Shown here: piece by piece, positions 6,154 through 48,249 of the stretch | How positions within the stretch are numbered: position 1 is the stretch's first letter | Layout of the letters: every line of letters starts with the position of its first letter | Assembly (NCBI GenBank): GCA_018820925.1 | Contig: JAHJNJ010000028.1 | Location: 1-64,000, forward strand | Direction of reading: 5' to 3' | Source: Gammaproteobacteria bacterium | GTDB taxonomy: Bacteria > Pseudomonadota > Gammaproteobacteria > Burkholderiales > Gallionellaceae | DNA: 64,000 nucleotides | The notes under the pieces: generated by a model | What the model was told of the DNA's origin: nothing | Seen by the model: only the letters and a program-made list of their open reading frames with translations | The model's database searches: none | Position numbers and translations under genes: made by a program

Positions 6154-6501
6154 ATGCTAGACGAAACCACTCATTACGGTCTGCTCAAGACCCTGGAAGA
6201 GAACCCCGGACTTTCGCAAAGAGATTTGGCGAAAAAGCTGGGCGTCAGCCTTGGAAAGATCAATTTCTGCCTCAACGCGCTGGTCGCAAAGGGCAGCCTC
6301 AAAATTAACAACTTCCGCAACAGCGACAACAAGCTGGCCTATGTCTACCTGCTCACACCGAGCGGGGTCGAGCAAAAAGCGCGCATGACTGTGCAGTTTC
6401 TCAAATATAAAGTACAGGAATATGAACGGTTGCGCGCCGAGATCGAGGAATTGCAGCGCGAAGCAGAACAAAAAGGTTTACTGGAGAAAGCACATGAGTG
6501 A
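6154..6501 (+). CDS. MarR-family EPS-associated transcriptional regulator
   Basis: A 115-residue winged-helix protein. LLKTLEENPGLSQRDLAKKL (about residues 8-27) is the first helix-turn-helix half, GKINFCLNALVAKG the recognition helix, and the last 35 residues form a charged coiled coil (YKVQEYERLRAEIEELQREA). This layout is that of the small MarR-type regulators found beside exopolysaccharide genes in Methylophilaceae and relatives. It probably controls the genes downstream, and perhaps itself. The ATG at 6154 is preferred because the promoter covers the more upstream starts. Its end overlaps manC by 8 nt, so both are translated from one message. Confidence 0.85.
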   Translation: MLDETTHYGLLKTLEENPGLSQRDLAKKLGVSLGKINFCLNALVAKGSLKINNFRNSDNKLAYVYLLTPSGVEQKARMTVQFLKYKVQEYERLRAEIEELQREAEQKGLLEKAHE

Positions 6502-7912
6502 AGTTCACGCAGTTATCCTGGCCGGTGGCAGCGGCAGCCGGCTTTGGCCATTGTCGCGGCAGCACCTGCCCAAGCAGTTCCTGGTGCTGGATGGGGATGG
6601 TTCGCTGCTGCAAACCACAATTGATCGCCTGTCGCCGACGATCAAGCCGGGAAACGTATTGGTTGTTACTCAGGAATCACATGCCAAGGGCGAGGCGTAT
6701 CACGCGCTGCTGGCATACCGCACGTTGTTTGAGCCCATCGGCCGCAATACTGCACCGGCTATAGCCTTGGCTGCAGCGTACCTGATGCAGGATGGTGCCG
6801 ACCCCGTGATGGTGGTGCTGCCTTCCGATCATGTCATCAAGGACGAAGCAGGGTTCCGAACACTACTGGATATCGCCATTAAAGAAGCACAGGGCGGAAA
6901 ACTGGTCACCTTCGGTATCCAGCCAACCAGGCCCGACACCGGGTTCGGCTATATCAAGACCAAAGGAAAGGCAGCGGCGAAAGATTCCCGGCACAGTGTT
7001 CATGAAGTGGAGCGTTTCACCGAAAAGCCCGATCATGCCACCGCCGAACGCTTTCTGCAGGAAGGCAACTATTTCTGGAACTCGGGCATGTTTGTGTGGC
7101 GCGCCTCGGTCATTCTTGCTGAAATGCAAAAATACCTGCCTGCGGTATACCAAATTGTGCAAACCATCGTTGCCGAAAGCCGGGCGGGCGTAAACTTCCA
7201 ACTGGCAGTGGAAAAGCACTTCGCGGCCATGCCCTCCATTTCCATCGACTACGGCGTACTGGAAAAGTCGGATAGCGTTTCCCTCATTCCCTGCGACATC
7301 GGCTGGAACGACGTGGGCAGTTGGCAGGCGGTACATGAGATTTCGCCCAAGGATGAAAACGGCAATGCGCTGCAGGGCAATGTCATTGCGGTTGGTTGCA
7401 GCAACACCCTGATCAGGGCGGAAAAACGCCTTGTGGCGGGCATCGGTCTGGAAGATTTATGTGTGATCGAGACCGCTGATGCCGTGCTGATTGCGAAGAA
7501 CGACCAGACCCAGAACGTGCGTGAAGTGGTGGATACGCTGCATCAGCGCGGGTCTACCGAACACATCTGCCATACCAAGGTAAATCGCCCCTGGGGCAGC
7601 TACACCGTGCTGGAAGAGGACCCGGAAGGCTTCAAACTCAAACGCATCGAGGTTGCACCCGGCGCCAGGCTCAGCCTGCAAAGCCATAAACGGCGCTCCG
7701 AGCACTGGGTAGTCGTTTCCGGCACGGCCACGGTTACGAATGGCAACGATGTCATCACCGTATACAAGAACCAGAGTACCTATATTCCCATCGGCACCAA
7801 GCATCGACTGGAGAATCTGGGAACCGAGCCGCTGCACATCGTCGAAATTCAGGTCGGTGAATATCTGGGTGAGGACGATATTCAGCGTTACGAAGACAAC
7901 TACGGTAGATAG
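6494..7912 (+). CDS. manC: Mannose-1-phosphate guanylyltransferase / mannose-6-phosphate isomerase
   Basis: A bifunctional type II PMI/GMP of 472 residues. The N-terminal part carries AGGSGSRLWPLSRQHLPKQF (10-29), the GTP-binding pyrophosphorylase signature, then FTEKPD and NSGMFVW. The C-terminal cupin (from about residue 355) has NRPWGSY, HKRRSEHWVVVSGTA and a P-I-G-x-x-H metal site for fructose-6-P/mannose-6-P isomerisation. It makes GDP-mannose for gmd and fcl just downstream and for mannosyl or rhamnosyl transfer. The ATG at 6494 follows a GGAG site; the open frame upstream of it belongs to the regulator gene region. Confidence 0.93.
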   Translation: MSEVHAVILAGGSGSRLWPLSRQHLPKQFLVLDGDGSLLQTTIDRLSPTIKPGNVLVVTQESHAKGEAYHALLAYRTLFEPIGRNTAPAIALAAAYLMQDGADPVMVVLPSDHVIKDEAGFRTLLDIAIKEAQGGKLVTFGIQPTRPDTGFGYIKTKGKAAAKDSRHSVHEVERFTEKPDHATAERFLQEGNYFWNSGMFVWRASVILAEMQKYLPAVYQIVQTIVAESRAGVNFQLAVEKHFAAMPSISIDYGVLEKSDSVSLIPCDIGWNDVGSWQAVHEISPKDENGNALQGNVIAVGCSNTLIRAEKRLVAGIGLEDLCVIETADAVLIAKNDQTQNVREVVDTLHQRGSTEHICHTKVNRPWGSYTVLEEDPEGFKLKRIEVAPGARLSLQSHKRRSEHWVVVSGTATVTNGNDVITVYKNQSTYIPIGTKHRLENLGTEPLHIVEIQVGEYLGEDDIQRYEDNYGR

Positions 7913-10008: not shown

Positions 10009-10713
10009 ATGCAATTGACGAATACACAACAAAAACTTCATGAACGACTTCATGAGAAAAAGGTATTTGTTTTTGACTGGGACGGAACGATTCTGGACTC
10101 CATGGCGATGAAGTCACGGAATTTTGATCAAGCATTCAGATCTGTAATAACAGTCGGGTCAAAATCGAAGCTGATAGATGACGTGGCCGGACATTACTTG
10201 CGATTGTCCGGGCGACCAAGAAAATATATCTTTGTCCAAATATTGAATTTGTTCAATCTGGATGAAGAGCAAGCTTCTTTTGAGCGATTTAATTTGGAGT
10301 TCGAAACTCTAAATAAGCGGGATTTGATCCATGCGGATGTATTTGAAGACGCGTTTGAATTGCTAAAAGAGCTTGCAGGGCATAACCGCAAGATCTTTAT
10401 TTCTTCATCCGTTCCGCAAAGGGAATTGGTGGAATTGGTAGAGGCAATTCTTCCGGATTCTATACGGAATGGCATTTCATCCGTATTGGGAAGTGAAGAT
10501 GGTTTTGCCAAAGGCATTGGACATCTCCGGTGGATCATGAAAGAGACTGGAGCTCCATGTGATCAGCTTTTGGTAATAGGGGATGACATTGCCGACTATG
10601 AGTTGAGTTTTGAGGCGGGCGTGGACTGCATTCTGGTGGACAGGACAGGCACGATGGCGGGAAACAGGAACAATGCGGTTAGCGATCTATTTCTGATCAA
10701 GGAAAGCCTATAA
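10009..10713 (+). CDS. HAD-superfamily phosphatase
   Basis: A 234-residue haloacid-dehalogenase-type hydrolase with a helical cap, similar in layout to phosphoglycolate phosphatase. Motif I is FDWDGTILDS with D23 and D25, motif II ISSSVP with S132, motif III K168 and motif IV VIGDDIADYE with D192/D193, so all catalytic residues are present. It probably removes phosphate from a sugar phosphate; next to NeuB- and NeuA-like genes a nonulosonate-9-phosphate is an attractive but unproven substrate. Base composition is richer in A and T than in fcl before it. The ATG at 10009 is used; a TTG at 9994 is also in frame. Confidence 0.8.
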   Translation: MQLTNTQQKLHERLHEKKVFVFDWDGTILDSMAMKSRNFDQAFRSVITVGSKSKLIDDVAGHYLRLSGRPRKYIFVQILNLFNLDEEQASFERFNLEFETLNKRDLIHADVFEDAFELLKELAGHNRKIFISSSVPQRELVELVEAILPDSIRNGISSVLGSEDGFAKGIGHLRWIMKETGAPCDQLLVIGDDIADYELSFEAGVDCILVDRTGTMAGNRNNAVSDLFLIKESL

Positions 10714-10715
10714 AT

Positions 10716-12437
10716 ATGAAATTCAAAGTGCTGGTAAGAAAAGATACGTCAATCAGGGAAGCCATCGGCATGATGGCGAGCTCGGATGCGAACAAGCATA
10801 TCGCGGGAGTCGTCGTCGTCGTCGATGGCGACAAGCATGTGACCGGCATCGTGACAGATGGCGATGTCAGAAGGGGTCTGGGAAAGAACATCGGTCTCGA
10901 CCAGTCAGTAGCGCTGATCGCACATCCTTCACCTATCACGGTGAAAGCCGGACTGAGCCACCAGCAGATGCGTCTGGACATCATCCGGCAAGCCAAATTG
11001 CGCCAAAAGGACTACCAGAAGTTCCACCAGATAATCCTGGTTGATGATGACGGCAAGTTCCACGATCTGGTCCTGCTGTCGGAGATCTTCGACCATCAGA
11101 TCGAGGATCGGGTTGTGGCTGTATATGGTATGGGGTTCGTCGGACTTACACTCGCCTCTGTCCTGGCCAACGCGGGACTGATGGTGGTGGGAGTGGATAC
11201 GAATCCGGAAGTCATCAGGAAGCTCCGCCGTGGGGTGCCAACATTCTTCGAGAACGGACTGGAGTCGATGCTTGATTCGCTCGCGCAGACCAACCCGATC
11301 CGCTTTATCGACAATCCGGACGAATCGGACGCCGACATTCACATCGTCTGCGTCGGCACGCCTGTCGACAAGACCAACTCGCCCGACTTTTCCTATGTGA
11401 ACCAGGCATCCGAAGCCATCGCGCGCAAACTGAAAAAGAATGACCTGGTCATCTTCCGTTCCACGCTGCCGGTCGGATCGTCGCGGCACCTCATTATCCC
11501 GATCCTTGAGAAAAGCGGGATGAAGGCAGGAATAGATTTCTACGTCTCCTTCGCTCCTGAAAGGACCGTAGAGGGGAATGCCCTGGAAGAACTCCGCGTG
11601 CTTCCCCAGATCATCGGCGGGTTCGACAAGACGAGCTGTGAACTGGCGGCAAGACTATTCAGCAAGATCACCAATACCATTGTCGAGGTGGAATCGCTTG
11701 AGGCAGCAGAGATGGTCAAGCTGCTCAACAACACCTACCGCGACCTGGTGTTCTCGTTCGCGAACGAAGTGGCGATGATATGCGACGGCCTCAATCTGAA
11801 CGCTTTCAAACTGATCGAAGGGGCAAACGAGGGCTATCCGAGAAACCCCATTCCAATGCCCAGCCCCGGCGTTGGCGGCATCTGCCTGGCAAAAGACCCG
11901 TATCTGTACACTCACTCCGTCAGCAATAAGAACGGCTACCGTCCGGTACTCGGTGTTGCAAGCCGCTCGATCAACTCGGCGGGGCACATGAGCGTTCTGG
12001 CAAAGATCAGGAAATTCTGCGACAGGACAGGCAAAGATATAAACACCATCAAGATCTATCTGATCGGCCTTTCATTCAAGGGCGTGCCGGAAACTTCCGA
12101 TATCCGCGAATCCATTGCGACTAAACTGGTCGGGGCGCTGCCCAATCCCGCGAATATCCACATCAAGGATTTCGTAGTGGGCGCGGAGGACATAAACGCT
12201 CTTGGCTGTCCGACGGTAAGCAACATCATGGACGGATTTGCCGGAGCGGATATCGTGCTGGTCATGAACAACCATCCCTTGAACAGCCGGTTCAACATTG
12301 CCGATGCATTCAAACTGACGCAAAAGCCGTTCATGATCTTCGACGGCTGGAACATGTTCAACCAACAACAAATTGAGAGTTTTCCGGATGCGTACTACGC
12401 GACGCTCGGATACATGTCGGAGTGCGAGCCATCTTGA
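10716..12437 (+). CDS. CBS-domain / nucleotide-sugar dehydrogenase fusion
   Basis: A 573-residue fusion. Residues 1-128 are a CBS pair: the first ends in VTGIVTDGDVRRGL (about 42-55), the form usual for CBS pairs attached to sugar nucleotidyltransferases. From residue 132 follows a UDP-glucose/GDP-mannose dehydrogenase: VAVYGMGFVGLTLA (Rossmann site, 138-143), TPVDKTNSPDFSYV, FAPERTVEGNAL, MVKLLNNTYRDL with K335/N339, and GVGGICLAKDP with catalytic C390. The enzyme should oxidise a nucleotide sugar to a uronic acid in two NAD steps, with adenosine-nucleotide sensing by the CBS pair as an inference. CBS fused to this enzyme class is unusual. The start ATG lies 2 bp after the HAD gene. Confidence 0.85.
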   Translation: MKFKVLVRKDTSIREAIGMMASSDANKHIAGVVVVVDGDKHVTGIVTDGDVRRGLGKNIGLDQSVALIAHPSPITVKAGLSHQQMRLDIIRQAKLRQKDYQKFHQIILVDDDGKFHDLVLLSEIFDHQIEDRVVAVYGMGFVGLTLASVLANAGLMVVGVDTNPEVIRKLRRGVPTFFENGLESMLDSLAQTNPIRFIDNPDESDADIHIVCVGTPVDKTNSPDFSYVNQASEAIARKLKKNDLVIFRSTLPVGSSRHLIIPILEKSGMKAGIDFYVSFAPERTVEGNALEELRVLPQIIGGFDKTSCELAARLFSKITNTIVEVESLEAAEMVKLLNNTYRDLVFSFANEVAMICDGLNLNAFKLIEGANEGYPRNPIPMPSPGVGGICLAKDPYLYTHSVSNKNGYRPVLGVASRSINSAGHMSVLAKIRKFCDRTGKDINTIKIYLIGLSFKGVPETSDIRESIATKLVGALPNPANIHIKDFVVGAEDINALGCPTVSNIMDGFAGADIVLVMNNHPLNSRFNIADAFKLTQKPFMIFDGWNMFNQQQIESFPDAYYATLGYMSECEPS

Positions 12438-13294
12438 GCCGCTATTACCACGTGATCGGTCTGATCCCGGAAAAAGAGATACGGGAAGAGGATGGCATGC
12501 TGCACGTGGACATTACCCGCGCCCTGCACAGGCCTGCGGTGCACAACGACATTGATATACTGGCCGCGCAGCAGAAGGGCGAGAGCATATGGGCTTCGGG
12601 CGGCGGAACATACTTGCTGAACGGCAGGTATCTGCTGACAGTCCGGCGATCGCCCGAAGCAAGAGTGAATCCCGGAAAGTTCTCGCTGTTCACCGGCAGG
12701 GCCGACAGCTGCGAAGAGTTGCAGCAACCGGGATTGCTGATCAGGGAGCTGTTCGAAGAGCTCATCCTTTATTCCGGGCCGCGCCTCTGCAAACCGGTTT
12801 GCGGGGAGTTCCGGGAAGTGATCGATCGCGTATATGCAAAGCTGTCGGCAGAGCTTGGGATAGACGATGCAGATGCAAAGCCGCTGCCCTTGCGGGCCAT
12901 AACGCTTGCAGCAAAGAATGTGACGGTCATCAACGAAGGAAGCGCGTGGAGAGGTGCTCTTGATTATCACGTGAACCAAAACAAAGAGATCAATTTCCTG
13001 TTTGTGCTTGCCGGGGAAATCGAGCTGGCAAACCTGGTTGCCCGGGACGGCGAATACCACTTCGAAGGCGGCAAGGCGGTCGAGCACAAACGCGATATCT
13101 ATCTGTATGACACGCATACATCAATGGGGCAGAACATCTCGAGCATCGGGCAGTGGCAGGAACAGATGGCCATCCCCGGGGAATTGATGACCGAACATAT
13201 GCGCTATCTGGTCGACTCGGTGACCGGATGGCTTGCAGCAAACGCACCGAATGGGCGATCAAGAACGAAAACAACTTGCCAGGCCAACATATGA
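12422..13294 (+). CDS. Nudix-like protein of unknown substrate
   Basis: A 290-residue protein with a Nudix-type core: GGGTYLLNGRYLLTVRRSP (60-78) reads as the opening strands, GKFSLFTGRAD (85-95) leads into a degenerate Nudix box ending LIRELFEELIL (106-116). RE and EE are kept, but the gap between the first Glu and RE is two residues longer than the usual GX5EX7REUXEE. If active it would cleave a nucleoside diphosphate derivative. The rest, including the C-terminal 130 residues, I do not recognise. Start is GTG 12422 or TTG 12434 (TTGA overlap with the gene before). It overlaps the NeuB-like gene by 4 nt, so it is firmly in this operon. Confidence 0.6.
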   Translation: MRAILSRYYHVIGLIPEKEIREEDGMLHVDITRALHRPAVHNDIDILAAQQKGESIWASGGGTYLLNGRYLLTVRRSPEARVNPGKFSLFTGRADSCEELQQPGLLIRELFEELILYSGPRLCKPVCGEFREVIDRVYAKLSAELGIDDADAKPLPLRAITLAAKNVTVINEGSAWRGALDYHVNQNKEINFLFVLAGEIELANLVARDGEYHFEGGKAVEHKRDIYLYDTHTSMGQNISSIGQWQEQMAIPGELMTEHMRYLVDSVTGWLAANAPNGRSRTKTTCQANI

Positions 13295-14259
13295 AGATAA
13301 TTGCCGAGTTTTGCCAGAATCACAATGGCCGCTTCGACATCCTCAAACAGATGATCAGCGAGGCCGCCGAAGGGGGGGCAACCCACGCCAAGATACAAAC
13401 CATCTTTGCCGATGACCTCGCTTTCCGTCCCGAGTTCGAGGAAGGACTGACGGATGCCAACGGTCAGGTAAAGGTGATCAAGCGCCCGTACCAGCCGGAA
13501 TACGAACGGCTGAAAAAACTGGAGCTCACCTACGAGCAGCATCGTCGCTTCGTCGAGGAATGCCGCGCCGCCGGCATGGAGCCGCTGACGACGGCCTTCA
13601 ACCTGACATGTATCCCCGAGGTTCGCGACCTCGGGTGGAAATCGATCAAGGTCGCAAGTTATGATTGCGGATCCGTCCCGCTGATCGAGGCCCTGGCAGA
13701 CAATTTCGACGAACTGATCGTGTCCACCGGGGCCTCGTACGATGAAGAGATCGAAGCCACTGCCGCATTGCTGAATGCGCGGGGCACAAAGTACACACTG
13801 TTGCATTGCGTGACCATCTATCCGACCCCGCTCGATGCCATGCATCTCAATCGCATCGCGTACCTGCGCAGTTTGGCCGGTTCGGTGGGTTTGAGCGACC
13901 ATTCGCTGGTGTCCAGGGACGGGGTCAAGGCGGACTTGGTGGCGATCCATCTGGGTGCCGACACAATCGAACGCCATTTCACCGTGCTGCCGGAAGACCA
14001 GACCCGCGACGGCAAGGTATCGATCACCAAAGCCCATCTGCGGGAAATGGCCGACTTCGCTGCCATGGACCGTGCCGCACAGGAAGCCTACCTGGCCGAG
14101 CATGTGCCGGAATGGGAAATCATGATGGGGCAACACAAGCGATCCCTGAGCGACGCCGAGCTGCTGAATCGCGCATATTATCGCGGACGCTTCTGCAACA
14201 AGATCGGCGAGCGCCAGATTTTCAATTGGGATGCTGAAGCGCGTCAATTGATCGGGTAA
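13291..14259 (+). CDS. NeuB-family sialic/nonulosonic acid synthase-like protein, SAF domain missing
   Basis: A 322-residue TIM-barrel protein of the NeuB/SpsE family, which condenses phosphoenolpyruvate with a six-carbon sugar. Seen are IAEFCQNHNGRFDILKQMI (4-22) at the PEP site, AKIQTIFADDL, VASYDCGS, LHCVTIYPTP, and GLSDHSL ... VAIHLGADTIERHFTV with the metal-binding His. After the barrel the protein ends within about 60 residues, where NeuB proteins normally continue into a C-terminal antifreeze-like SAF domain. That domain closes the partner's active site in NeuB dimers, so its absence points to another substrate or a partner protein. Start overlaps the Nudix-like gene (ATGA). Confidence 0.8.
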   Translation: MKIIAEFCQNHNGRFDILKQMISEAAEGGATHAKIQTIFADDLAFRPEFEEGLTDANGQVKVIKRPYQPEYERLKKLELTYEQHRRFVEECRAAGMEPLTTAFNLTCIPEVRDLGWKSIKVASYDCGSVPLIEALADNFDELIVSTGASYDEEIEATAALLNARGTKYTLLHCVTIYPTPLDAMHLNRIAYLRSLAGSVGLSDHSLVSRDGVKADLVAIHLGADTIERHFTVLPEDQTRDGKVSITKAHLREMADFAAMDRAAQEAYLAEHVPEWEIMMGQHKRSLSDAELLNRAYYRGRFCNKIGERQIFNWDAEARQLIG

Positions 14260-14295
14260 TGACGAAATTTCGATAAACAACAATCCGGGTGCCAC

Positions 14296-15102
14296 ATGAG
14301 CGAACAGCGTTCGAATTCAGATTTGCAGAAATTCTACGACCAGTCCTACAAGAAGGGAGAGGCGGAAGTCTTCACCTTTTTCGAGAACGGCAAACACATC
14401 AGCGAAGACCATCCAGCCGCGCTGGCGTCGATAGACTGGAGCGGGAAAACGGTGCTGGATGTCGGCTGCGGAACAGGCATGCTGGTGCGCGAAATAGCGG
14501 CACGGGGCGCGAGCAGGGTGATCGGCCTGGACTACGCCGCGCCGGCGATCGAGGAAGCGAAAGGCATACCGTACCCGCCCAATGTCGAATTCGTCACCGC
14601 GGACATCATGAGCTGGACACCGCCCGTTCCCTTCGACGTCATCGTCACACTGGGCACGATGGAACACCTGGACGAACCGGCCCGGTTCCTGAAGAGGATG
14701 ACGGAGTTCCTGGCGGACGACGGCACCATCGTGATCGCTTGTCCGCATTTCCTGAATCCACGCGGTTATGTCTGGATGGCGTTGGCGACCCTGCTGGATG
14801 TGCCAATGTCACTTTCTGATCTGCATTTCATCCATCCATGGCACATGAAGGACTGGGCGACGGAATTGGGGATGGAAGCGGAACTGGTGACCACGGTGGA
14901 CCGCAATTGGGCCTATGGACCGCGGCTGCTGAAAGACTTCGACAAACGTCTGCGCAACGCATTGCGCGACGCCAAACTGCCGACTGGCAAAGTCGACTCA
15001 TACATGAAGTATCTGGGAGATCTGGTGCAGCATCTGGAAACGGAAAACGCGGGACCCGGCCTGGACGGCGCAACCGCACTCTATCGTCTGCGCCGCAAGT
15101 GA
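14296..15102 (+). CDS. Class I SAM-dependent methyltransferase
   Basis: A 268-residue methyltransferase with motif I VLDVGCGTGMLVREI (about 54-68), acidic end of strand 2 GLDYA, and ADIMSW, VTLGTMEHLD as motifs IV-V. The start SDLQKFYDQSYKKGEAEVFT and the IACPHFLNPRGYVW block resemble sugar or lipid-type methyltransferases of polysaccharide loci. It lies 36 bp after the NeuB-like gene in the same direction and is followed by two more methyltransferase genes. The acceptor cannot be read from sequence; a sugar hydroxyl is the simplest idea. Confidence 0.8.
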   Translation: MSEQRSNSDLQKFYDQSYKKGEAEVFTFFENGKHISEDHPAALASIDWSGKTVLDVGCGTGMLVREIAARGASRVIGLDYAAPAIEEAKGIPYPPNVEFVTADIMSWTPPVPFDVIVTLGTMEHLDEPARFLKRMTEFLADDGTIVIACPHFLNPRGYVWMALATLLDVPMSLSDLHFIHPWHMKDWATELGMEAELVTTVDRNWAYGPRLLKDFDKRLRNALRDAKLPTGKVDSYMKYLGDLVQHLETENAGPGLDGATALYRLRRK

Positions 15103-15130
15103 AGCACGGCTGTTAACTAGGAGAGAACGG

Positions 15131-15850
15131 ATGACTAATGTTGGCGACGGCCTGTCTGCGGACCGGGGAAACTGGAAGTTCAGCGGAGCGGTGGTGGATT
15201 CATTCGATGATCACGTATCGAAATCGGTGCCGCTCTATCGCGAGGGGCACGAGCTGATCTGCGACATGAGCGACTTCTTCATCAAGCCGGATTCGGTGTG
15301 CTACGAGATTGGGTGTTCGACCGGTACGCTGACCCTGAAACTGGCAGACCACAACCGCGGTAAACCTGGGGCAAGCTTTATCGGCATCGATATCGAAGCC
15401 GACATGATAGCCAAGGCGAAGGACAAAGCCTCGACAATTCCTGGCCTGAACGTCTCCTTCGTGGCCGAGGATGCACTGGCGATGGCAATGCAGCCCGCCG
15501 ACCTGATCGTGTGTTATTACACGATACAGTTCGTCCGTCCGTCGGTACGCCAGGAATTGATCGACAAACTCTACAGCACACTGAACTGGGGCGGCGCCCT
15601 GCTCCTGTTTGAAAAGGTGCGCGGTGCCGATGCACGCTTCCAGGACATCCTGACCACGCTGTACAACGACTACAAACTGCGCATGGGCTATACACCGGAA
15701 GAGATCGTGTCCAAGACGCGCAGCCTGAAAGGGGTGCTGGAACCGTTCTCGACGCAGGGCAATATCGACATGCTGAAGCGGGCGGGGTTCGTCGATATCA
15801 ATACGGTTCAGAAATACCTGTGCTTCGAAGGATTCCTGGCCATCAAATAA
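15131..15850 (+). CDS. CmoA-like SAM-dependent methyltransferase
   Basis: This 239-residue protein resembles the carboxy-SAM synthase CmoA along its length: FDDHVSKSVPLY near the N terminus, CYEIGCSTGTLTLKLA for motif I, YYTIQFVRPSVRQELIDKLY, GGALLLFEKV and a C-terminal MLKRAGF block. CmoA makes carboxy-SAM from SAM and prephenate for tRNA wobble modification. Here the Arg of the CmoA KARLHKAGF block, which I recall as the carboxylate ligand, is Met. With its place among polysaccharide genes this suggests a repurposed enzyme using plain SAM or another acceptor. An AGGAG site precedes the ATG. Confidence 0.75.
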   Translation: MTNVGDGLSADRGNWKFSGAVVDSFDDHVSKSVPLYREGHELICDMSDFFIKPDSVCYEIGCSTGTLTLKLADHNRGKPGASFIGIDIEADMIAKAKDKASTIPGLNVSFVAEDALAMAMQPADLIVCYYTIQFVRPSVRQELIDKLYSTLNWGGALLLFEKVRGADARFQDILTTLYNDYKLRMGYTPEEIVSKTRSLKGVLEPFSTQGNIDMLKRAGFVDINTVQKYLCFEGFLAIK

Positions 15851-15862
15851 GGAACGCGTGAT

Positions 15863-15898
15863 TCAAGTCCGTCCGCCCTGAGCTTGTCGAAGGGTCAC
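15863..15898. repeat. REP-like element (single unit)
   Basis: TCAAGTCCGTCCGCCCTGAG followed by CTTGTCGAAGGGTCA in the gap between two methyltransferase genes. The core CCTGAGC-N4-TCGAAGGGTCA recurs in the large palindrome at 42961-43061 of this window, so the two belong to one repeat family. Confidence 0.55.
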
Positions 15899-15958
15899 CA
15901 CGAATGAAGGAATCAAACAAAAATCCGCAGGCAAGTACCTGCAGGAGACAAAGGGGAA

Positions 15959-17041
15959 ATGAAGAACATGAGCGGCAAATCATTCGATATATCCTCCTTC
16001 GAGAGTTGTCTCGAAGCCAAGAACCAGTTTGACGGCAACCTGCGTTTCGGGGCCAAGAAGTTCCACAAGGAAACGAATCGCAGCGGCGAAGGCAAGCCGG
16101 CCGACGGGGGGTTGATCCGCGAACACGCAAAGATCGTCAAAGACACCGGCCAAGATCGCTACCAGCGGACCGGCGACTATTGGGAAGACGTGAATGCATG
16201 CCCTGTCTGTGGCGGAACTGACCGCTCGTTCTTTCTTTCCCGCATGGGGCTGGACATCTGGAAATGCAAAAGCTGCAGCCACCGCTACCAGCACCCGCGG
16301 ATCACCTTTGAAAAAGCGTGCGAACTCTACGGCGACGACAAGACGGCATCGGATATCTACACACAGCCGATCCAGAAGGATATCGACCGCATCAAATACC
16401 AGTACGGCTTGGACCTGGTCAGCCAGCTGAACCCGCCCGGTCATGACCGCATCATGGACATCGGCTGCGGCGCCGGCGTGTTTCTGGAAGTAGCCCAGGC
16501 CAACGGCTGGAACACCTGCGTGGGGATCGATGCCAACAGCCGCTATGCCGACATCTACCAGGAAGCAAAAGGCATCCAGTACATCCAGTCGAGCTTCGAG
16601 CGCTTCGATCGCGAGCGCCTTGGTACGAACTACGACTGTATCAGTTTATGGAATGTGCTGGAGCACCTGTTCGACTTGCAGGGCATCGTCGCCGAGATCA
16701 AGCGCATGCTCAAACCAGGCGGCTTGTTGTTTATCATGGTGCCCAATGTGGAAAGCCTGGCCACCCGCCTGATCCGCGAAAAATCGGCCACCTTCAACTG
16801 GAAGCATGTCTCACATTTCTCGCCCAACAGCCTCAAGACACTGATGTCCCGCCACGGCCTGGAATGCGTGCACATGGAGACGGCGATCAGCGAGATCGAC
16901 AACGTGAAGAGCTACATGTCGGGCGAGTATCCGTATCACGGTTACGGCGACCCCGATTACCTGTTCGATTTCATCACGCCGGAATACCTGCATCGCAACC
17001 TGCTCGGCAGCCGCATGATTGGAGTGTTCCGCAATGCTTAG
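15959..17041 (+). CDS. Zinc-ribbon class I methyltransferase (C-methyltransferase-like)
   Basis: A 360-residue protein. After about 80 residues comes a four-cysteine zinc ribbon: ACPVCGGTD, then WKCKSCSHRYQHP. The SAM domain follows, with RIMDIGCGAGVFLEVAQANG as motif I, GIDANSRYAD, and SLWNVLEHLFD, ML KPGGLLFIMVP as motifs IV-VI. A zinc-binding N terminus ahead of a SAM fold is shared with sugar C-methyltransferases and with many uncharacterised methyltransferases of O-antigen loci. The N-terminal 80 residues are charged and not recognised. SD AAGGGG is directly upstream of the ATG. Its stop overlaps the cytidylyltransferase start by 8 nt. Confidence 0.75.
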   Translation: MKNMSGKSFDISSFESCLEAKNQFDGNLRFGAKKFHKETNRSGEGKPADGGLIREHAKIVKDTGQDRYQRTGDYWEDVNACPVCGGTDRSFFLSRMGLDIWKCKSCSHRYQHPRITFEKACELYGDDKTASDIYTQPIQKDIDRIKYQYGLDLVSQLNPPGHDRIMDIGCGAGVFLEVAQANGWNTCVGIDANSRYADIYQEAKGIQYIQSSFERFDRERLGTNYDCISLWNVLEHLFDLQGIVAEIKRMLKPGGLLFIMVPNVESLATRLIREKSATFNWKHVSHFSPNSLKTLMSRHGLECVHMETAISEIDNVKSYMSGEYPYHGYGDPDYLFDFITPEYLHRNLLGSRMIGVFRNA

Positions 17042-17747
17042 GGGGCAACCGGTCACCGCAGTCATCCCGGTACGCGGCGGATCAAAAGGCATTCCCGGCA
17101 AAAACCTTTATCGCCTGGGGCGAGACACCCTGCTGGAGCGCACAATAAAAATTGCCAAGTTGTGCCCGTATGTTGACCGCGTTCTGGTCTCCACCGATAA
17201 CCGGGAGATGTTCGACATCGCCCAGCGCTACACAGCCGCGGCCCCCACCCTTCGCCCGGCCGAATTGGCCACCGACAATGCGAAAACGGTGGATGTCGTC
17301 CTGAACCTGATTGAAACAGCGCCCATTCCCGCAGGCTGGGTGCTGCTGCTGCAGGTGACCTCGCCATTGCGCACGCTTGGCGATTTGAATGACTTCTGCC
17401 GCACCTTTGAAGAAGCTGACCCTGCAGCCGAGGCCATAGTCAGCCTGGTTCAGCATGATTCTCCTCACCCTGACAAGATACAGAAAATCGATAACGGAAT
17501 TGTCGTCTCATACCTGGGCAAAGAATCAATGGTCGCTCGCCAGTTGCTGCCTAAGGTGTATTCGCTGAATGGTGCCTTCTACCTGACGCATCGGGACATA
17601 CTCATTGAACGAAGAACCTTCATGCCGGCACAAACGATCCCATTCATCATGCCAGAAGAAAGAAGCCTGAATCTTGATGGAAAGCTGGATCTGTTCTTGT
17701 TGGAAGCCCTTCTTGAAAAAGGGCGGATTGTCCTGGAGGAGTATTGA
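17034..17747 (+). CDS. CMP-sugar (N-acylneuraminate-type) cytidylyltransferase
   Basis: A 237-residue nucleotidyltransferase of the NeuA/PseF/LegF type: AVIPVRGGSKGIPGKNLYRL (8-27 or so) is the CTP-binding signature, VSTDNREMFDIA and LLLQVTSPLRTLGDLN follow, and SLNGAFYLTHRD and NLDGKLDL near the end match the family's sugar- and metal-site segments. It should activate a nonulosonic or 3-deoxy acid as the CMP derivative. The NeuB-like gene 3 kb upstream would supply the acid. The ATG at 17034 overlaps the previous gene's stop. Which acid is made cannot be told: no NeuC, PseB/C/G/H or Leg homologue is nearby. Confidence 0.85.
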   Translation: MLRGQPVTAVIPVRGGSKGIPGKNLYRLGRDTLLERTIKIAKLCPYVDRVLVSTDNREMFDIAQRYTAAAPTLRPAELATDNAKTVDVVLNLIETAPIPAGWVLLLQVTSPLRTLGDLNDFCRTFEEADPAAEAIVSLVQHDSPHPDKIQKIDNGIVVSYLGKESMVARQLLPKVYSLNGAFYLTHRDILIERRTFMPAQTIPFIMPEERSLNLDGKLDLFLLEALLEKGRIVLEEY

Positions 17748-19947: not shown

Positions 19948-20685
19948 ATGCCAAAACAAGAAATCACACATCGCGACCATCTGGGGCCTACGTACAAGGG
20001 AGTGGCGATACACGCGCTCCCGGGGCTGCATGAGCAAGTCTATCAGTTTGCGCTGGAAAACTTTGAAACCGGCCTGCCCGTGCTTGAACTGGGCGCGGGC
20101 TCCGGCGCGTTATCCCTGCGCATGCGTGATGGGGGGTTCTCTGTCGTCCCCGTCGATCTGGATGGCAACGACTGGAACCTTGACATCCCGTTGATAGAGG
20201 CAAATCTGAATGAAGAAAACTGGCAGAAGAAACTGCCTGCCGGGATGCGGTTCCGCCAGATAGTTGCTATCGAGGTGATTGAACATCTTGAGAATCCATC
20301 CGGGTTCTTCCGCGATATCTCGTCCTTACTGGATGAGGGTGGATGTTTGATTCTTTCCACGCCAAACGTGTGTTCCTTTCATTCTGCCTATGCGCTGATG
20401 AAGAGAGGTGAGCTTGCCCTGTTTTCGCCGGACGACTGTATCACGTCCGGGCATATCTCGATCTTGCCATGGTGGATGTTGCAGCATCTGGCTGCAAGGT
20501 GCGGCTTGGCTGTCGCCAGGTGTGAGGGAGTCTGCGAGATACCGGTCGCGGGTCCTCTGAAGAAGCTCTTCGTGCGGCTCGCCGCGCGGCTGAGGGCGCT
20601 TGTTTATCGGCCCGCAGAATTCGTGCACCCCGATGGCCTTAACGTCGTTCTCGTGTTCAGGAAGCGGACTGCCGGTAATGAGTAG
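19948..20685 (+). CDS. Class I SAM-dependent methyltransferase
   Basis: A 245-residue methyltransferase: PVLELGAGSGALSLRMRDGG is motif I, VPVDLDG the second, and IVAIEVIEHLENPSGFFRDI and GGCLILSTPNV the later motifs. The EVIEHLENP and LSTPNVCS wording is that of the UbiG/COQ5-like group common in glycan loci. A GGAAAC site precedes the ATG. Its stop overlaps the next gene by 8 nt, so it works with the KpsS-like protein and the glycosyltransferase that follow. The acceptor is unknown; capping or decoration of a glycan is a fair guess. Confidence 0.8.
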   Translation: MPKQEITHRDHLGPTYKGVAIHALPGLHEQVYQFALENFETGLPVLELGAGSGALSLRMRDGGFSVVPVDLDGNDWNLDIPLIEANLNEENWQKKLPAGMRFRQIVAIEVIEHLENPSGFFRDISSLLDEGGCLILSTPNVCSFHSAYALMKRGELALFSPDDCITSGHISILPWWMLQHLAARCGLAVARCEGVCEIPVAGPLKKLFVRLAARLRALVYRPAEFVHPDGLNVVLVFRKRTAGNE

Positions 20686-22327
20686 TCGATCCCTGTTGTA
20701 CTGGACAAGGTTTCCATTAAAGGTGCCTGCCGCGCTGAAACGGCGTCTTGGCCTGATCGTGGATTTCCTGAAGTACAGAAAGAATTTCAATACCTACCGG
20801 AACATCGTTGACGGCAATCATCGAACGGGCGGCAGGGTCCTGTTCGTGGCGGGTCGAGGGATGAACGTTGGCTGGGCGCAGATGTGGACGTATTTGAGTT
20901 TGAGCTTTGCCTTGCGGAATATCGAGCCGTGCGTACTGATATTGAGCAGGCAATGGGTTATGCGCCTGTATTTCAACTTGGTCGGGGCGCGCATCTTCAG
21001 ACTGGAGGTCGTTTTGGAAAATGACGCTCGTCCATTTTGTTCCGAGGAGCTGGAAGAATGCCGCACAGTGAAGCAATGGAAGGCGCTCCATTACATGAAC
21101 ATGCCGGTCGGGCAGATGGCCTTGTCAACCTATTGCAGATACCATGCAACCGGATTTATCGAGCCTTCGAATGAGTCTTTCAGAGTATTTGCCGCCGAGT
21201 GGATACAGGATATATGCAGGGCCTACGAAGCGGCCGCCAAACTGTACCGGACGCATAAGATTGACAGGGCGGTATTCACCGAGACATTCATCGAAGAATA
21301 TGGCGGCTTCTATTACGCTGCACTGGCATCCGGGATTGATGTGATCAAGACGTCCGGAACAGTGAGGGATAACGCCATCGTGGTGCAGCGCCGTAGCGCA
21401 CAGAATGAGCGGCTGCATCACGCAGCCTTGACCGATCCGGCATGGCAGATCGTAAAGCAGCTAATAGATTACGACCAGATCAAGAGCGAGGTGGACAGGA
21501 ACTTCTCAGATCGCTACGGAGGCAAGTGGCTTCGTTCCCAGCGCAACCACAAGAATACGAAAATCGTGTCGCGAGAAGAAGGCCGGGCTCTGCTGGGCTT
21601 GACCGGCGAACGCAAGAGCGTGGTTGTCTTCAGCCATATCCTGTATGACGCCATGTTCCATTATGGGGACGAGCTATTCCAGGACTATGCGACCTGGTTG
21701 ATTGAAACCGTCAAGGTGGCCATCGAGAACCCCGGGGTGGATTGGTTCATCAAACTGCACCCGTCCAATTTGTGGCGGGGTGAGTTCCAGTCCATGCTCG
21801 GAGGGAAGTACGAGGAAGAGAAGATTATTGCCCGCCATATCGGTGCCCTCCCTGCGCATGTTCACCTAGTGTACGCAGATACGCCGATCAATCCTTTCGG
21901 CTGGTACCAGATCGCCGACTATGGAATATCTGTGCGAGGTACGGCAGGGCTGGAGATGGCGTGCTTCGGCAAACCTGTGATCACCGCGGGAACGGGCAGG
22001 TACGAGGGCAAAGGGTTCACGATCGACCCCAGGTCAGTGGATGAATATCGCTCGATCCTGCTGGCACTCCCAGCCCTGAATCCATTGACGCCAGCGCAGA
22101 CTGAGCTTGCTGTTCGCTACGCACACGGTCTGTTCAACATGAAGCCGTTTACGCTTGCCTCGCTTGAACCAAGACTGAAGTTCGGAAAACGTCAGGTGCG
22201 CGAGTCGGATGACATTACTTATGTTCCGCATCCACATTCGGAGGCAACACCATTGCCATCAGAACTTTTGCGCTTCGCAGACTACATCGAAGATAAGAAT
22301 CAGATCGATCTGTTGACGGAGGCCTGA
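20678..22327 (+). CDS. Capsule-polysaccharide-synthesis-like protein (KpsS/KpsC-type GT-B)
   Basis: A 549-residue protein. The C-terminal half reads like the capsule synthesis family: VVVFSHILYDAMFHYGDEL, WFIKLHPSNLWRGEF, then YQIADYGISVRGTAGLEMAC and GKPVITAGTGRYEGKGFT, matching the donor-site half of a GT-B transferase. In KpsS/KpsC such domains add Kdo from CMP-Kdo. A CMP-sugar user would fit the CMP-sugar synthetase at 17034, but this link is inference. The N-terminal 250 residues are poorly recognised. The ATG at 20678 overlaps the methyltransferase stop by 8 nt. Confidence 0.6.
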   Translation: MSSRSLLYWTRFPLKVPAALKRRLGLIVDFLKYRKNFNTYRNIVDGNHRTGGRVLFVAGRGMNVGWAQMWTYLSLSFALRNIEPCVLILSRQWVMRLYFNLVGARIFRLEVVLENDARPFCSEELEECRTVKQWKALHYMNMPVGQMALSTYCRYHATGFIEPSNESFRVFAAEWIQDICRAYEAAAKLYRTHKIDRAVFTETFIEEYGGFYYAALASGIDVIKTSGTVRDNAIVVQRRSAQNERLHHAALTDPAWQIVKQLIDYDQIKSEVDRNFSDRYGGKWLRSQRNHKNTKIVSREEGRALLGLTGERKSVVVFSHILYDAMFHYGDELFQDYATWLIETVKVAIENPGVDWFIKLHPSNLWRGEFQSMLGGKYEEEKIIARHIGALPAHVHLVYADTPINPFGWYQIADYGISVRGTAGLEMACFGKPVITAGTGRYEGKGFTIDPRSVDEYRSILLALPALNPLTPAQTELAVRYAHGLFNMKPFTLASLEPRLKFGKRQVRESDDITYVPHPHSEATPLPSELLRFADYIEDKNQIDLLTEA

Positions 22328-27775: not shown

Positions 27776-28203
27776 TCGAGCGCATCACACACGCAGGCGA
27801 ACTGTTGGCAATCATCGTGCGGGCGGCTTTTAATGAGCCCGGAATTTCCTTTTTTACGCCGAACGAGCTCTCGCAGCAGTTGGCATACATGCGCCACCCG
27901 GCGGGCAAGCTCATACAGCCTCATGTGCATAATCCGGTACCGCGGCAGGTGCATTACACCCAGGAAGTGCTGTTCATCCGCAGGGGAGTGTTGCGTGTAG
28001 ACTTCTATGATAACGGGCAGAACTACTTGGAGAGTCGCATGCTGCGGGGGGGCGATACAATTCTGCTGACAACCGGTGGCCATGGATTCGAGGTGCTCGA
28101 GGAGGTTGAGATGATCGAAGTTAAACAGGGCCCTTATGCCGGCGATGCTGACAAAACCCGTTTCGACGGCGTGTCGACGGCATGCTTAACAATAAAGGAT
28201 TGA
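27772..28203 (+). CDS. Small cupin-fold protein (sugar-nucleotide related)
   Basis: A 143-residue single-domain cupin: HPAGKLIQPHVHNPVPRQVH carries the HxH metal-type motif, QEVLFIRRGVLRVDFYD the Glu and the turn, and GGDTILLTTGGHGFEV the second half with a further His. Cupins of this size stand beside aminotransferases in dideoxy-aminosugar loci, sometimes as isomerases of keto-sugars. The exact reaction cannot be read. It overlaps the GT before it (ATGA) and is 2 bp ahead of the aminotransferase start, so the three are translated together. Confidence 0.7.
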   Translation: MIERITHAGELLAIIVRAAFNEPGISFFTPNELSQQLAYMRHPAGKLIQPHVHNPVPRQVHYTQEVLFIRRGVLRVDFYDNGQNYLESRMLRGGDTILLTTGGHGFEVLEEVEMIEVKQGPYAGDADKTRFDGVSTACLTIKD

Positions 28204-28205
28204 AC

Positions 28206-29327
28206 GTGACCGCCTTCATCCCTGTAAACGAGCCACTGCTTGATGGCAATGAAAAAAAGTATCTGTGCGAATGTATCGACAGCGGCTGGATATCATCCGA
28301 AGGGCCATTCGTTCAGCGCCTCGAAAAAGAGTTCGCGAGTCGTATGGGCCGCAGGTTCGGCATCGCGGTTGCCAACGGCTCCGTGGCGCTCGATGCGGCG
28401 GTAAAGGCGCTGGACCTCGGTCCCGGCGACGAGGTGATCATGCCGACCTTTACCATCATCTCCTGCGCTGCCGCGATCGTGCGTTCCGGGGCAATACCGG
28501 TGCTGGTGGATAGTGAGCCGGACACCTGGAACATGGACCTGCGCCAGGTTGAGCAGAAGATCACGCCGCGCACGCGTGCAGTCATGGCCGTGCATATCTT
28601 TGGCTTGCCGGTGGATATGGATGCCTTGCTGGCGATCACGGAGCCGCGCGGCATCAAAGTGATCGAGGACGCGGCGCAGATGCACGGCCAGACAGTCCGT
28701 GGTCGGCCTTGCGGCAGCTTTGGCGACTTGAGCACCTTCAGTTTCTATCCCAACAAGCATGTCACTACCGGCGAGGGCGGTATCATCGTCGCGAATGATG
28801 AGGCGCTTGCCGAACGCTGCCGGGGTTTGCGCAATCTGTGTTTCATGCCGCAAAAGCGTTTTGTGCATGAGGAGCTGGGCTGGAACTTCCGCATGTCGAA
28901 CCTGCAGGCGGCGCTCGGTTGTGCGCAACTTGAGCGGCTGGATACCTTTGTCGCGCGCAAACGGAATATGGGCCGCCGCTATGACGAGTTGCTGGCAGAT
29001 GTGCGGGACATACAGCGGCCGTTGACCAGTACTGCGTGGGCAGAGAATATCTACTGGGTCTACGGCCTGGTGCTGGATGATGCACTGCCTTTCGATGCGG
29101 AGGAGGCGATGCGCCGACTCGGTGCAAAAGGCATCGGATGCCGCCCCTTCTTCTGGCCCATGCATGAACAGCCGGTCTTCCGCCGCATGGGGTTGTTCGC
29201 CGGGGAAAGCTATCCGGTCGCGGAGCGGATGGCGCGCCGGGGTTTTTATCTGCCGAGCGGGATGGCGCTCACCGGGGCGCAGATGGATCGTGTTGCTGAT
29301 ATGTTAAAAGAGGTGATTGCCCCATGA
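28206..29327 (+). CDS. DegT/DnrJ/EryC1-family aminotransferase (GDP-perosamine-synthase-like)
   Basis: A 373-residue PLP sugar aminotransferase. IPVNEPLLDGNEKKYLCECI and DSGWISSEGPFVQRLEKEFA at the start closely follow the GDP-perosamine synthase pattern. EDAAQMHGQ holds the PLP ring contact and FSFYPNKHVTTGEGG the PLP lysine. GDP-4-keto-6-deoxymannose from the gmd gene of this window would be a ready substrate, giving GDP-perosamine; this is inference. The GTG at 28206 is preferred to the ATG at 28182 because AAAGGA lies 6 bases before it and the family starts there. It overlaps the next methyltransferase by 4 nt. Confidence 0.85.
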   Translation: MTAFIPVNEPLLDGNEKKYLCECIDSGWISSEGPFVQRLEKEFASRMGRRFGIAVANGSVALDAAVKALDLGPGDEVIMPTFTIISCAAAIVRSGAIPVLVDSEPDTWNMDLRQVEQKITPRTRAVMAVHIFGLPVDMDALLAITEPRGIKVIEDAAQMHGQTVRGRPCGSFGDLSTFSFYPNKHVTTGEGGIIVANDEALAERCRGLRNLCFMPQKRFVHEELGWNFRMSNLQAALGCAQLERLDTFVARKRNMGRRYDELLADVRDIQRPLTSTAWAENIYWVYGLVLDDALPFDAEEAMRRLGAKGIGCRPFFWPMHEQPVFRRMGLFAGESYPVAERMARRGFYLPSGMALTGAQMDRVADMLKEVIAP

Positions 29328-43321: not shown

Positions 43322-44095
43322 ATGAAGGCGGTCATTCTTGCGGGTGGATTGGGAACACGAATCAGTGAAGAGACATCGGTTCGTCCGAAGCCGATGGTTG
43401 AGATCGGCGGCAAGCCGGTTTTGTGGCACATCATGAAAACCTATTCTGCCTACGGCGTGAATGACTTTGTGGTTTGCTGCGGCTACAAGGGCTATATCAT
43501 CAAGGAATACTTCGCCAATTACTTCCTGCACATGTCGGATGTGACCTTCGACATGGAGCATAACAAAATGGAAGTGCATCAACGTTACGCCGAGCCGTGG
43601 AAGGTGACTTTGATTGATACCGGAGAAAACACCATGACCGGCGGTCGATTGAAACGGGTGGCGGATTACGTAAAAAATGAGGAAGCTTTCTGCCTGACCT
43701 ATGGTGACGGCGTAAGCGACGTCAACATCACCGAATTGATTGCCTTTCACAAGACGCAAAAGGTCAAGGCAACCCTGACTGCGACGCTTCCCCCCGGCCG
43801 CTTCGGCGCCCTCGACATGAAGGGCAGCAAGGTCAACAGTTTTCGCGAAAAGCCCAAGGGCGATGGCGCAATGATCAATGGCGGCTTCTTTGTGCTGTCT
43901 CCGCAAGTCATCGACTATATCGCCGGCGACCAAACCGTTTGGGAGCGCGAACCGATGGAGCGCCTGGCGGAAGAAGGCCAGCTAGCCGCTTTCCAGCACG
44001 AGGGCTTCTGGCAACCGATGGACACGCTACGCGACAAGATGCATCTCGAGGAACTGTGGCAATCGGGCAAGGCGCCGTGGAAGGTCTGGCCGTGA
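43322..44095 (+). CDS. rfbF: Glucose-1-phosphate cytidylyltransferase
   Basis: Makes CDP-glucose from CTP and glucose-1-phosphate, the first step to CDP-3,6-dideoxyhexoses (also named ddhA or ascA). The 257-residue protein has [20 protein letters not shown], the signature with the longer gap typical of Rfb[37 protein letters not shown], and [17 protein letters not shown]. All family blocks and length agree. The ATG follows GGGAG. It overlaps the next gene by 4 nt and heads the set of five genes to 49179. Confidence 0.95.
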
Positions 44096-45162: not shown

Positions 45163-45184
45163 AAATAGCGAGCGGGAGTTTCAA

Positions 45185-46498: not shown

Positions 46499-46523
46499 CA
46501 CGACGCGAACACAGGGATACACC

Positions 46524-48233: not shown

Positions 48234-48249
48234 TCATCCCCACAATGTG

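Follow-up and report, generated by a model that had tools for sequence, protein, structure and literature searches.

In the KDN (3-deoxy-D-glycero-D-galacto-nonulosonic acid) route of Bacteroides thetaiotaomicron and in the animal route via N-acetylneuraminic acid (Neu5Ac) 9-phosphate, a synthase of the NeuB family works together with a HAD phosphatase and a cytidine monophosphate (CMP)-sugar synthetase. PseG and NeuC each free a sugar from uridine diphosphate (UDP), and cleavage by a Nudix enzyme followed by a phosphatase achieves the same in two steps. According to the active-site passages of PMC6795526, the active site of NeuB is completed by Arg314 of its SAF (antifreeze-like) domain, a residue that positions the N-acetyl group of N-acetylmannosamine (ManNAc); background on this domain is given in parts of PMC7591256. 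Here we analyze a run of eight genes (positions 10009–17747, all on the + strand) in a 64,000-nucleotide stretch of Gallionellaceae DNA from contig JAHJNJ010000028.1, which we call the window. The genes lie inside a large polysaccharide island of a 3.44-Mb genome (G000) and include a SAF-less member of the NeuB family, named NeuB* below. Our comparison shows that NeuB* is co-inherited with a 6-dehydrogenase of the UDP-N-acetylhexosamine (UDP-HexNAc) type that is fused to a CBS pair, usually also with the CMP-sugar synthetase NeuA, and with one of several apparent sugar-release modules that exclude each other. We propose that the unit may encode a nonulosonate-type pathway starting from a nucleotide-bound uronic acid, a reading for which we infer the substrate, the product and the order of steps, and to which we give about an even chance.

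NeuB* as a SAF-less subfamily

Judged by sequence and phylogeny, NeuB* is a distinct SAF-less subfamily of the NeuB family and the defining gene of the unit. The TIM-barrel domain PF03102 is present in 24/24 aligned members and is the sole Pfam match in the protein of the window (P0004). The SAF domain was detected by Pfam in 0/24 of these members and, with the same search, in 10/10 ordinary NeuBs taken from 20 fetched loci. A first-pass annotation of this DNA had already described a NeuB-like synthase without SAF, and this description holds for the whole aligned group. P0004 stays far under the curated cut-offs for sialic and pseudaminic synthases (TIGR03569, 163 of 400 bits; TIGR03586, 137 of 340 bits). 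Of 17 mapped positions of Neisseria meningitidis NeuB, 15 chosen from general knowledge of the enzyme and two added from the active-site part of PMC6795526, 14 are identical in 24/24 members. The deviating ones are E134, which is D in all 24, N184, which is T or S, and N74, which is variable. Among the 13 active-site residues listed in that part of PMC6795526, 11 were alignable and nine are identical in 24/24; the two left over are F288, which could not be placed, and R314, which belongs to the missing SAF. In the place of SAF, NeuB* has a tail with the invariant motifs NR-x-Y-x-x-GRF and NW.

Scanning a single genome of each species gave 25 NeuB* relatives at 47–84% identity, and a profile search brought the number to 26 by adding L083; since the scan requires exact short P0004 peptides, this list is partial. 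The relatives come from records of about ten phyla. Their titles name Bacteroidetes, Flavobacteriaceae, Saprospiraceae, Alpha-, Gamma- and Deltaproteobacteria, Rickettsiales, Sulfuricurvum and Nitrospirae, and further Planctomycetota, Elusimicrobia, Armatimonadetes, Prochlorococcus, Bacteriovoracaceae and Omnitrophota. Because most of these records are metagenome-assembled, the taxon label of a relative's contig may be wrong. With the profile of alignment A3, from which L049, L052 and L083 (all three part of the later counts) were left out, NeuB* scores 496–520 bits in four genomes, whose other NeuBs reach at most 129 bits. In the tree a fully supported branch divides the ordinary NeuBs from NeuB* together with some viral sequences; L073 and L096 sit on long branches and several forks are poorly supported.

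NeuB* is rare. We found it in 2/398, 2/395 and 3/385 sampled genomes, counts that include the host genome, the centre genomes and the known bearers, so that the sole new bearer is G663. Some NeuB match occurs in 33/100 surrounding genomes (host included), the best other one by E-value being only 34% identical, and no second NeuB match was found in the host genome itself. Plasmid and phage collections gave no matches to P0004 (E 1e-60 and 1e-20). On viral contigs we saw 14 loci, all with distant NeuB* relatives of 34–38% identity (L086–L097 are IMG/VR contigs). A 2-hydroxyacid dehydrogenase match is present in 11/14 of these viral loci, and in their available sequence no CBS-dehydrogenase, Nudix-like gene, sugar dehydrogenase or C3 (a gene family of the bacterial NeuB* loci, treated below) was found.

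Genes that accompany NeuB*

Neighboring genes were counted over 27 NeuB* loci (positions 1–26600 of the window, L031–L055 and L083) and over 20 control loci of about 20 kb with ordinary NeuBs from the same order. L082 and L100, whose contigs equal those of L032 and L051 in length, were taken as duplicates of these, and L084 and L085 are other NeuBs of two bearer genomes; none of these was counted. The CBS-dehydrogenase fusion is present in 20/27 NeuB* loci (one of them, L044, cut by the contig end) and in 0/20 controls, so that the neighborhood test suggested in the first-pass annotation comes out in favor of a conserved unit. A dehydrogenase of any kind is found in 22/27 loci, in two of them without CBS; the count at cut-off is 21, as it omits the truncated fusion of L044. 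NeuA accompanies NeuB* in 21/27 loci and a 2-hydroxyacid dehydrogenase (C15) in 9/27. In the controls C3, the Nudix-like gene and HAD were likewise each found in 0/20 loci, and PseG in 15/20. The locus L083, which is outside all training alignments and was found by profile, reads NeuA-NeuB*-fusion-C3, and a tblastn search with the proteins of the window as queries led to the same result for the fusion and NeuA.

Identity distances are correlated between NeuB* and the dehydrogenase (r = 0.906, n = 19 loci) and between NeuB* and NeuA (r = 0.784, n = 21 loci), with 0/2000 shuffles as high in either case; shared descent contributes to both values. From these comparisons the gene arrangement is more than chance, and because the members are scattered over phyla, transfer as a unit is favored. 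The methyltransferases are a different matter: the CmoA-related gene and MT3 occur in the same 7/27 NeuB* loci and MT1 in 6/27, which places the methylation suggested in the first-pass annotation outside the core. Separately, on a 9.4-kb contig binned as Bacteroidetes (L031) the whole set of eight genes recurs in unchanged order, at 59–91% protein identity; this is either a recent transfer or a mis-binned contig.

The fusion protein of the window (P0002) scores 320 bits with TIGR03026 of NCBIfam (cut-off 189.8). The catalytic-type Cys of the GVGGxC motif, the residue needed for oxidation of an alcohol to an acid, is kept in 18/18 aligned fusions, L034 having the variant GVAGLC. In a quick tree with midpoint root, all 20 fusions fall into a single clade (SH-aLRT branch support 98) that is joined with the UDP-ManNAc/UDP-GlcNAc-type dehydrogenases (99) and stands away from the UDP-glucose-type enzymes. 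P0002 is under the equivalog cut-offs for UDP-ManNAc 6-dehydrogenases (NF040825, 214 of 750 bits; NF008286, 198 of 459 bits), and it is by the tree only that it appears akin to them. Its CBS part weakly matches the KpsF model TIGR00393 (32 bits); CBS domains of KpsF/KdsD-type enzymes of 3-deoxy-D-manno-octulosonate (Kdo) synthesis are proposed sensors of CMP-sugar. Elsewhere the host genome holds two further such dehydrogenases, one TviB-like and one Ugd-like, as well as a possible source of UDP-ManNAc, a WecB-like epimerase that scores 177 bits against a cut-off of 210. In L041 and L053 the position of the fusion, beside C3, NeuB* and NeuA, is occupied by a CBS-free dehydrogenase of the hexose type. 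Because the oxidation is kept although the enzyme changes, the acid group would be part of the NeuB* substrate. The oxidation to an acid, which had only been suspected before, looks integral to the unit.

The genes that may release the sugar follow a pattern of exclusion. The Nudix-like gene is present in 8/27 NeuB* loci and HAD in 7/27, in every case together with the Nudix-like gene. C3 occurs in 14/27 loci, one of them, L042, with a match of 61 bits that is truncated where the contig ends; HAD was found in 0/14 of these, again counting the truncated L042. C3 and the Nudix-like gene meet in 0/27 loci, their states need two changes on the NeuB* tree, and C3 was not found in positions 1–26600 of the window, where the Nudix-like gene and HAD are present. 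Neither occurs in 5/27 loci (L040, L044, L049, L052, L055). In L044, L049 and L052 the sequence breaks off close to NeuB* or the fusion; in L055 a true NeuC lies directly upstream of NeuB* (370 bits, curated cut-off 236). The simplest account of this exclusion pattern would be one function, the conversion of a nucleotide sugar into the free sugar, filled in three ways. On this account HAD, which tracks the Nudix-like gene, would act before NeuB* and not after it.

As to the single proteins, the HAD family of P0001 has the motifs DWDGT and GDD in 6/6 aligned members. The canonical Nudix box reads G-x5-E-x7-REUxEExGU. In 8/8 Nudix-like proteins we find an invariant SGGG and an irregular box, G-x6-E-x8-RELFEE; the Pfam and NCBIfam Nudix models give no match to P0003. 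Its profile aligns weakly with seven Nudix proteins of the same genome (HHalign probability 24, E 8e-4) and with six unrelated profiles at a probability below 0.5; Nudix, the earlier label, is thereby the nearest profile, though a weak one. The AlphaFold2 model of P0003 has a pLDDT (model confidence) of 87.6. None of four C3 members tried reached a Pfam cut-off. Compared with 14 PseG-type proteins taken from the controls, the C3 profile gave an alignment of 278 columns (HHalign probability 93, E 3.5e-7); with six unrelated profiles the probability was below 1. Ten of the 14 reference proteins were tested, and 10/10 are above the curated PseG cut-off. The motif G-x-GH-x-x-R is present in 10/10 clustered C3 members, and the AlphaFold2 model of C3 has a pLDDT of 90.5.

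A proposed uronate-first pathway and its rivals

In the pathway that we propose, the CBS-dehydrogenase would oxidize a UDP-HexNAc, with UDP-ManNAc favored, at C6 to the UDP-HexNAc-uronate. In the window the Nudix-like protein, as a UDP-uronate pyrophosphohydrolase, would then give the uronate 1-phosphate and HAD the free uronate, while in 14 relatives the free uronate would be released by the PseG-like hydrolase C3. NeuB* would join the open-chain uronate with phosphoenolpyruvate (PEP) to a 3-deoxy-nonul-2-ulosonate that carries another carboxylate at C9; from ManNAcA, the uronic acid of ManNAc, the product would be 5-acetamido-3,5-dideoxy-nonulosaric acid (C11H17NO10, computed mass 323.085 Da). 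NeuA would make the CMP-sugar and the methyltransferases would decorate the sugar for the polysaccharide of the surrounding island; the CBS pair is perhaps a feedback sensor and may sense the CMP-sugar. Oxidation and activation are suggested by family membership, the release step by the exclusion pattern together with distant similarity, and the condensation by the conserved NeuB* residues and the neighborhood. A C9 acid would make C8 part of an alpha-hydroxy acid and hence a possible substrate for the 2-hydroxyacid dehydrogenase of nine relatives. As a related gene is also found near the distant viral NeuB relatives and in one ordinary-NeuB control, we regard this as a hint only.

Several observations weigh against this pathway. 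NeuB* is without Arg314, the residue that positions the N-acetyl group, and the sugar may therefore not be N-acetylated. The hidden Markov models of the neighbors and their cut-offs were built from the NeuB* loci after these had been seen. Among the 20 ordinary-NeuB controls, the CBS part alone was weakly matched in four (22–58 bits), a dehydrogenase in two (100 and 218 bits) and a 2-hydroxyacid dehydrogenase in one (266 bits). No dehydrogenase was found in 5/27 NeuB* loci (L037, L040, L049, L052, L055). In L049, L052 and L055 NeuB* is close to a contig end, and at that of L052 no partner gene was found in the available sequence. L037 has flanks of 1.6 and 10 kb; in L040, with 10 kb on each side, neither dehydrogenase nor C3, Nudix-like gene, HAD or NeuA was found. 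As they stand, L037, L040 and L055 misfit a dehydrogenase-first route, and the NeuC of L055 suggests plain ManNAc there. NeuA is missing from 6/27 loci, L035 has the Nudix-like gene without HAD, and the Nudix assignment of P0003 is weak. As for C3, the PseG reference set had been chosen by the same G-x-GH-x-x-R motif, PseG models matched none of five C3 members tried, the best solved-structure matches of the C3 profile are GT-B glycosyltransferases, and C3 could itself be a glycosyltransferase.

Unlikely, yet deserving of serious attention, is the explanation that one operon serves two sugars. The UDP-uronate would go straight into the polysaccharide, and NeuB* and NeuA would make an ordinary CMP-nonulosonate from ManNAc, mannose or a related sugar that is freed by Nudix and HAD, by C3 or by NeuC. 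Separate enzyme sets for UDP-ManNAcA and CMP-Neu5Ac are described for the capsules of two Campylobacter jejuni serotypes in the relevant sections of PMC10919079. NeuC is indeed paired with NeuB* in L055, and the use of a uronate by NeuB* is predicted only indirectly. For an unrelated second sugar, however, a co-inheritance of r = 0.906 is unexpected, as are the absence of the fusion from all 20 ordinary NeuB loci and the substitute dehydrogenase of L041 and L053.

We consider it improbable that the unit follows the KDN or animal type of route, in which NeuB* would condense a hexose 6-phosphate with PEP and HAD would then take off the 9-phosphate. There is a bacterial precedent in KDN synthesis, and one gene run of the window does hold both HAD and NeuB*. 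Without SAF, NeuB* is moreover like the SAF-less sugar-phosphate synthases, of which the structural discussion in PMC6795526 offers KDO8P synthase as an example. The first-pass annotation had started from this order of condensation and dephosphorylation. It is not supported, because a phosphatase acting after NeuB* would be needed everywhere and one acting after Nudix only where Nudix is, and HAD shows the second distribution (7/27 NeuB* loci, 0/14 with C3). This route also leaves the dehydrogenase, Nudix and C3 unexplained.

A uronate-first route with a non-acetylated sugar (ManA, the uronic acid of mannose, or another hexuronate), which would end in a KDN-type diacid of 282.059 Da, has a similarly small probability in our view. 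The N-acetyl-positioning Arg314 is gone together with SAF, L041 and L053 use hexose-type dehydrogenases, and the island holds a GDP-mannose gene (Table 1); the fusion of the window, on the other side, clades with UDP-HexNAc enzymes, and L055 has NeuC. Finally, late oxidation, in which a neutral nonulosonate would be CMP-activated before the fusion oxidizes C9 of the CMP-sugar, would give the same end product and a CBS pair that might bind the cytidine nucleotide, but is very unlikely given the retained UDP-binding domain PF03720, the place of the fusion among UDP-HexNAc dehydrogenases and the swap in L041 and L053 to an enzyme of the hexose type, which it can hardly explain.

Returning to the uronate-first pathway via UDP-HexNAc, we extend it to the whole group in a tentative proposal, held at somewhat less than an even chance. 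About ten phyla may make CMP-activated nonulosaric acids with carboxylates at C1 and C9, uronate-first, by a UDP-HexNAc dehydrogenase gated by its CBS pair, a release module that can be exchanged (Nudix-like protein and HAD, a new PseG-like hydrolase family, or NeuC) and a SAF-less synthase; in some relatives (9/27 loci) C8 would be further edited by a 2-hydroxyacid dehydrogenase. If this is true, a doubly acidic class is added to the sialic-type surface sugars, and a PEP-condensing synthase subfamily works without SAF, a domain by which the active site is completed in the best-studied relative. NeuB* together with the CBS-dehydrogenase would be a genome marker for such polysaccharides, and testable functions would be gained for P0003 (Nudix-like) and C3 (PseG-like), two families in which no member tried had a Pfam match.

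Setting of the locus and comparison with known systems

The features of the window are collected in Table 1; domains of its proteins were checked with Pfam and NCBIfam.

Table 1. Genes of the NeuB* unit and further sugar genes of the window.
Feature	Position	Strand	Basis
P0001, HAD-IA phosphatase	10009..10713	+	PF13419 42.6 bits; TIGR01549 28.7 bits (cut-off 23.3)
P0002, CBS pair fused to nucleotide-sugar 6-dehydrogenase	10716..12437	+	PF00571 and PF03721/PF00984/PF03720
P0003, Nudix-like protein	12422..13294	+	conserved box, weak profile likeness; no Pfam match
P0004, NeuB*, SAF-less NeuB-family PEP-condensing synthase	13291..14259	+	PF03102 169.7 bits
P0005, MT1, class I S-adenosylmethionine (SAM) methyltransferase	14296..15102	+	PF13649/PF13489
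P0006, CmoA-related protein	15131..15850	+	TIGR00740 147 bits, under the 193 cut-off
P0007, MT3, zinc-ribbon-like stretch and methyltransferase	15959..17041	+	PF13489 102 bits; PF12760 24.6 bits (cut-off 25.4)
P0008, NeuA/PseF-type CMP-sugar synthetase	17034..17747	+	PF02348 61 bits (cut-off 22.6)
GDP-mannose gene	6422-7912, upstream in island		TIGR01479 563 bits
GMD-type and fucose-synthase-type genes	upstream in island		named by reading translations
LegC-type aminotransferase	28182-29324		318 of 420 bits, under cut-off
PseB/WbpM-type dehydratase	35626-37455		192 of 408 bits, under cut-off

All eight genes named in the first-pass annotation were found again on the + strand, in one direction. 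Its statement that most of them overlap by 4–8 nt has to be revised: with the NeuA start taken as 17034, overlaps of 16, 4 and 8 nt are seen at 3/7 junctions, and 4/7 are gaps (2, 36, 28 and 108 nt). A single transcription unit is plausible. P0008 is similar to the CMP-Neu5Ac synthetase of N. meningitidis (1eyr; phmmer E 1.1e-26) and under the PseF equivalog cut-off (97 vs 206 bits). Among the eight proteins none reached the cut-off of a NeuB, Pse or Leg model of NCBIfam, and the NeuC model gave no match; the earlier claim that NeuC, Pse and Leg genes are absent therefore stands for these eight, and for the rest of the window it has to be qualified by the LegC-type and PseB/WbpM-type genes below their cut-offs. 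What remains of the first-pass reading is a non-standard, conserved unit that pairs a NeuB-type, PEP-condensing enzyme with an activator of the NeuA type, and with it the idea of a CMP-ulosonate.

Of the three methyltransferases named at first, all three keep the SAM-methyltransferase fold, with the correction that one, P0006, is CmoA-related. Background on CmoA, CmoB and phage carboxymethylation is given in parts of PMC3663124, PMC4482062 and PMC12783734; the structural part of PMC3663124 describes a salt bridge from Arg199 of CmoA to the carboxylate. At the position of Arg199 in E. coli CmoA, 7/7 CmoA-related proteins have T, S or A, with an Arg at +1 in 7/7, and the host genome has no CmoA or CmoB above cut-off. 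Although P0006 is a sequence relative of CmoA, it thus differs in this column and in staying under the TIGR00740 cut-off. A role as carboxy-SAM (Cx-SAM) synthase is disfavored since the Arg199 column is not conserved, and we keep it as a minor possibility: P0006 is probably a methyltransferase and less likely a carboxy-SAM synthase. In the Sulfuricurvum locus (L036:13670-15196), an open reading frame (ORF) of 509 amino acids between MT3 and NeuA resembles by eye a B12-binding radical SAM protein.

Further genes of the window were noted beside the unit. A protein of about 550 amino acids without Pfam match (20600-22327, +) recurs in four Nudix-type loci (L032, L033, L034, L036) and could be the transferase for the CMP-sugar. 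At 43322-49179 a glucose-1-phosphate cytidylyltransferase, a CDP-glucose 4,6-dehydratase and RfbH, all above cut-offs, are followed by an acetolactate-synthase-like protein under cut-off and a short-chain dehydrogenase/reductase (SDR)-like ORF without match, a set that resembles the CDP-yersiniose type of branched-sugar genes.

Among the titles listed by our open-access literature searches, none concerns the NeuB* unit (subscription papers and preprints were outside the scope), and the term 'nonulosaric' with related spellings gave no paper. Two published loci were considered and set aside. The Shewanella sfm operon combines a NeuB-domain gene with a methyltransferase, and the searchable text of PMC3765264 contains neither 'dehydrogenase' nor 'CBS' (Nudix and cytidylyltransferase were not searched there). 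The NeuB of the Serratia KDN capsule has an extra isomerase-type domain, and 'phosphatase' is absent from the available text of PMC9000132; this is not the NeuB* unit.

Of the known routes, those for KDN and Neu5Ac 9-phosphate use the same three families, but HAD in our loci tracks the Nudix-like gene and not NeuB*. With the pseudaminic acid pathway the unit compares at the PseG step, since C3 of the relatives aligns to PseG and the motif G-x-GH-x-x-R is common to both. With sialic acid synthesis by NeuC, NeuB and NeuA, as outlined for C. jejuni HS:6 in sections of PMC10919079, it would have in common release from a UDP-sugar, condensation with PEP and activation with CMP. In contrast to that system, the NeuB* unit has no SAF, contains a dehydrogenase and is predicted to make a diacid; its loci would use Nudix-like protein and HAD or a PseG-like protein for the release, with NeuC only in L055. 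Finally, in UDP-ManNAcA synthesis by an epimerase and a UDP-ManNAc 6-dehydrogenase, which the same sections describe for C. jejuni HS:11, the dehydrogenase is of the same family as the fusion and has the conserved Cys. The fusion, however, has an N-terminal CBS pair and its own clade, and its uronate would be set free and lengthened rather than transferred as UDP-ManNAcA.

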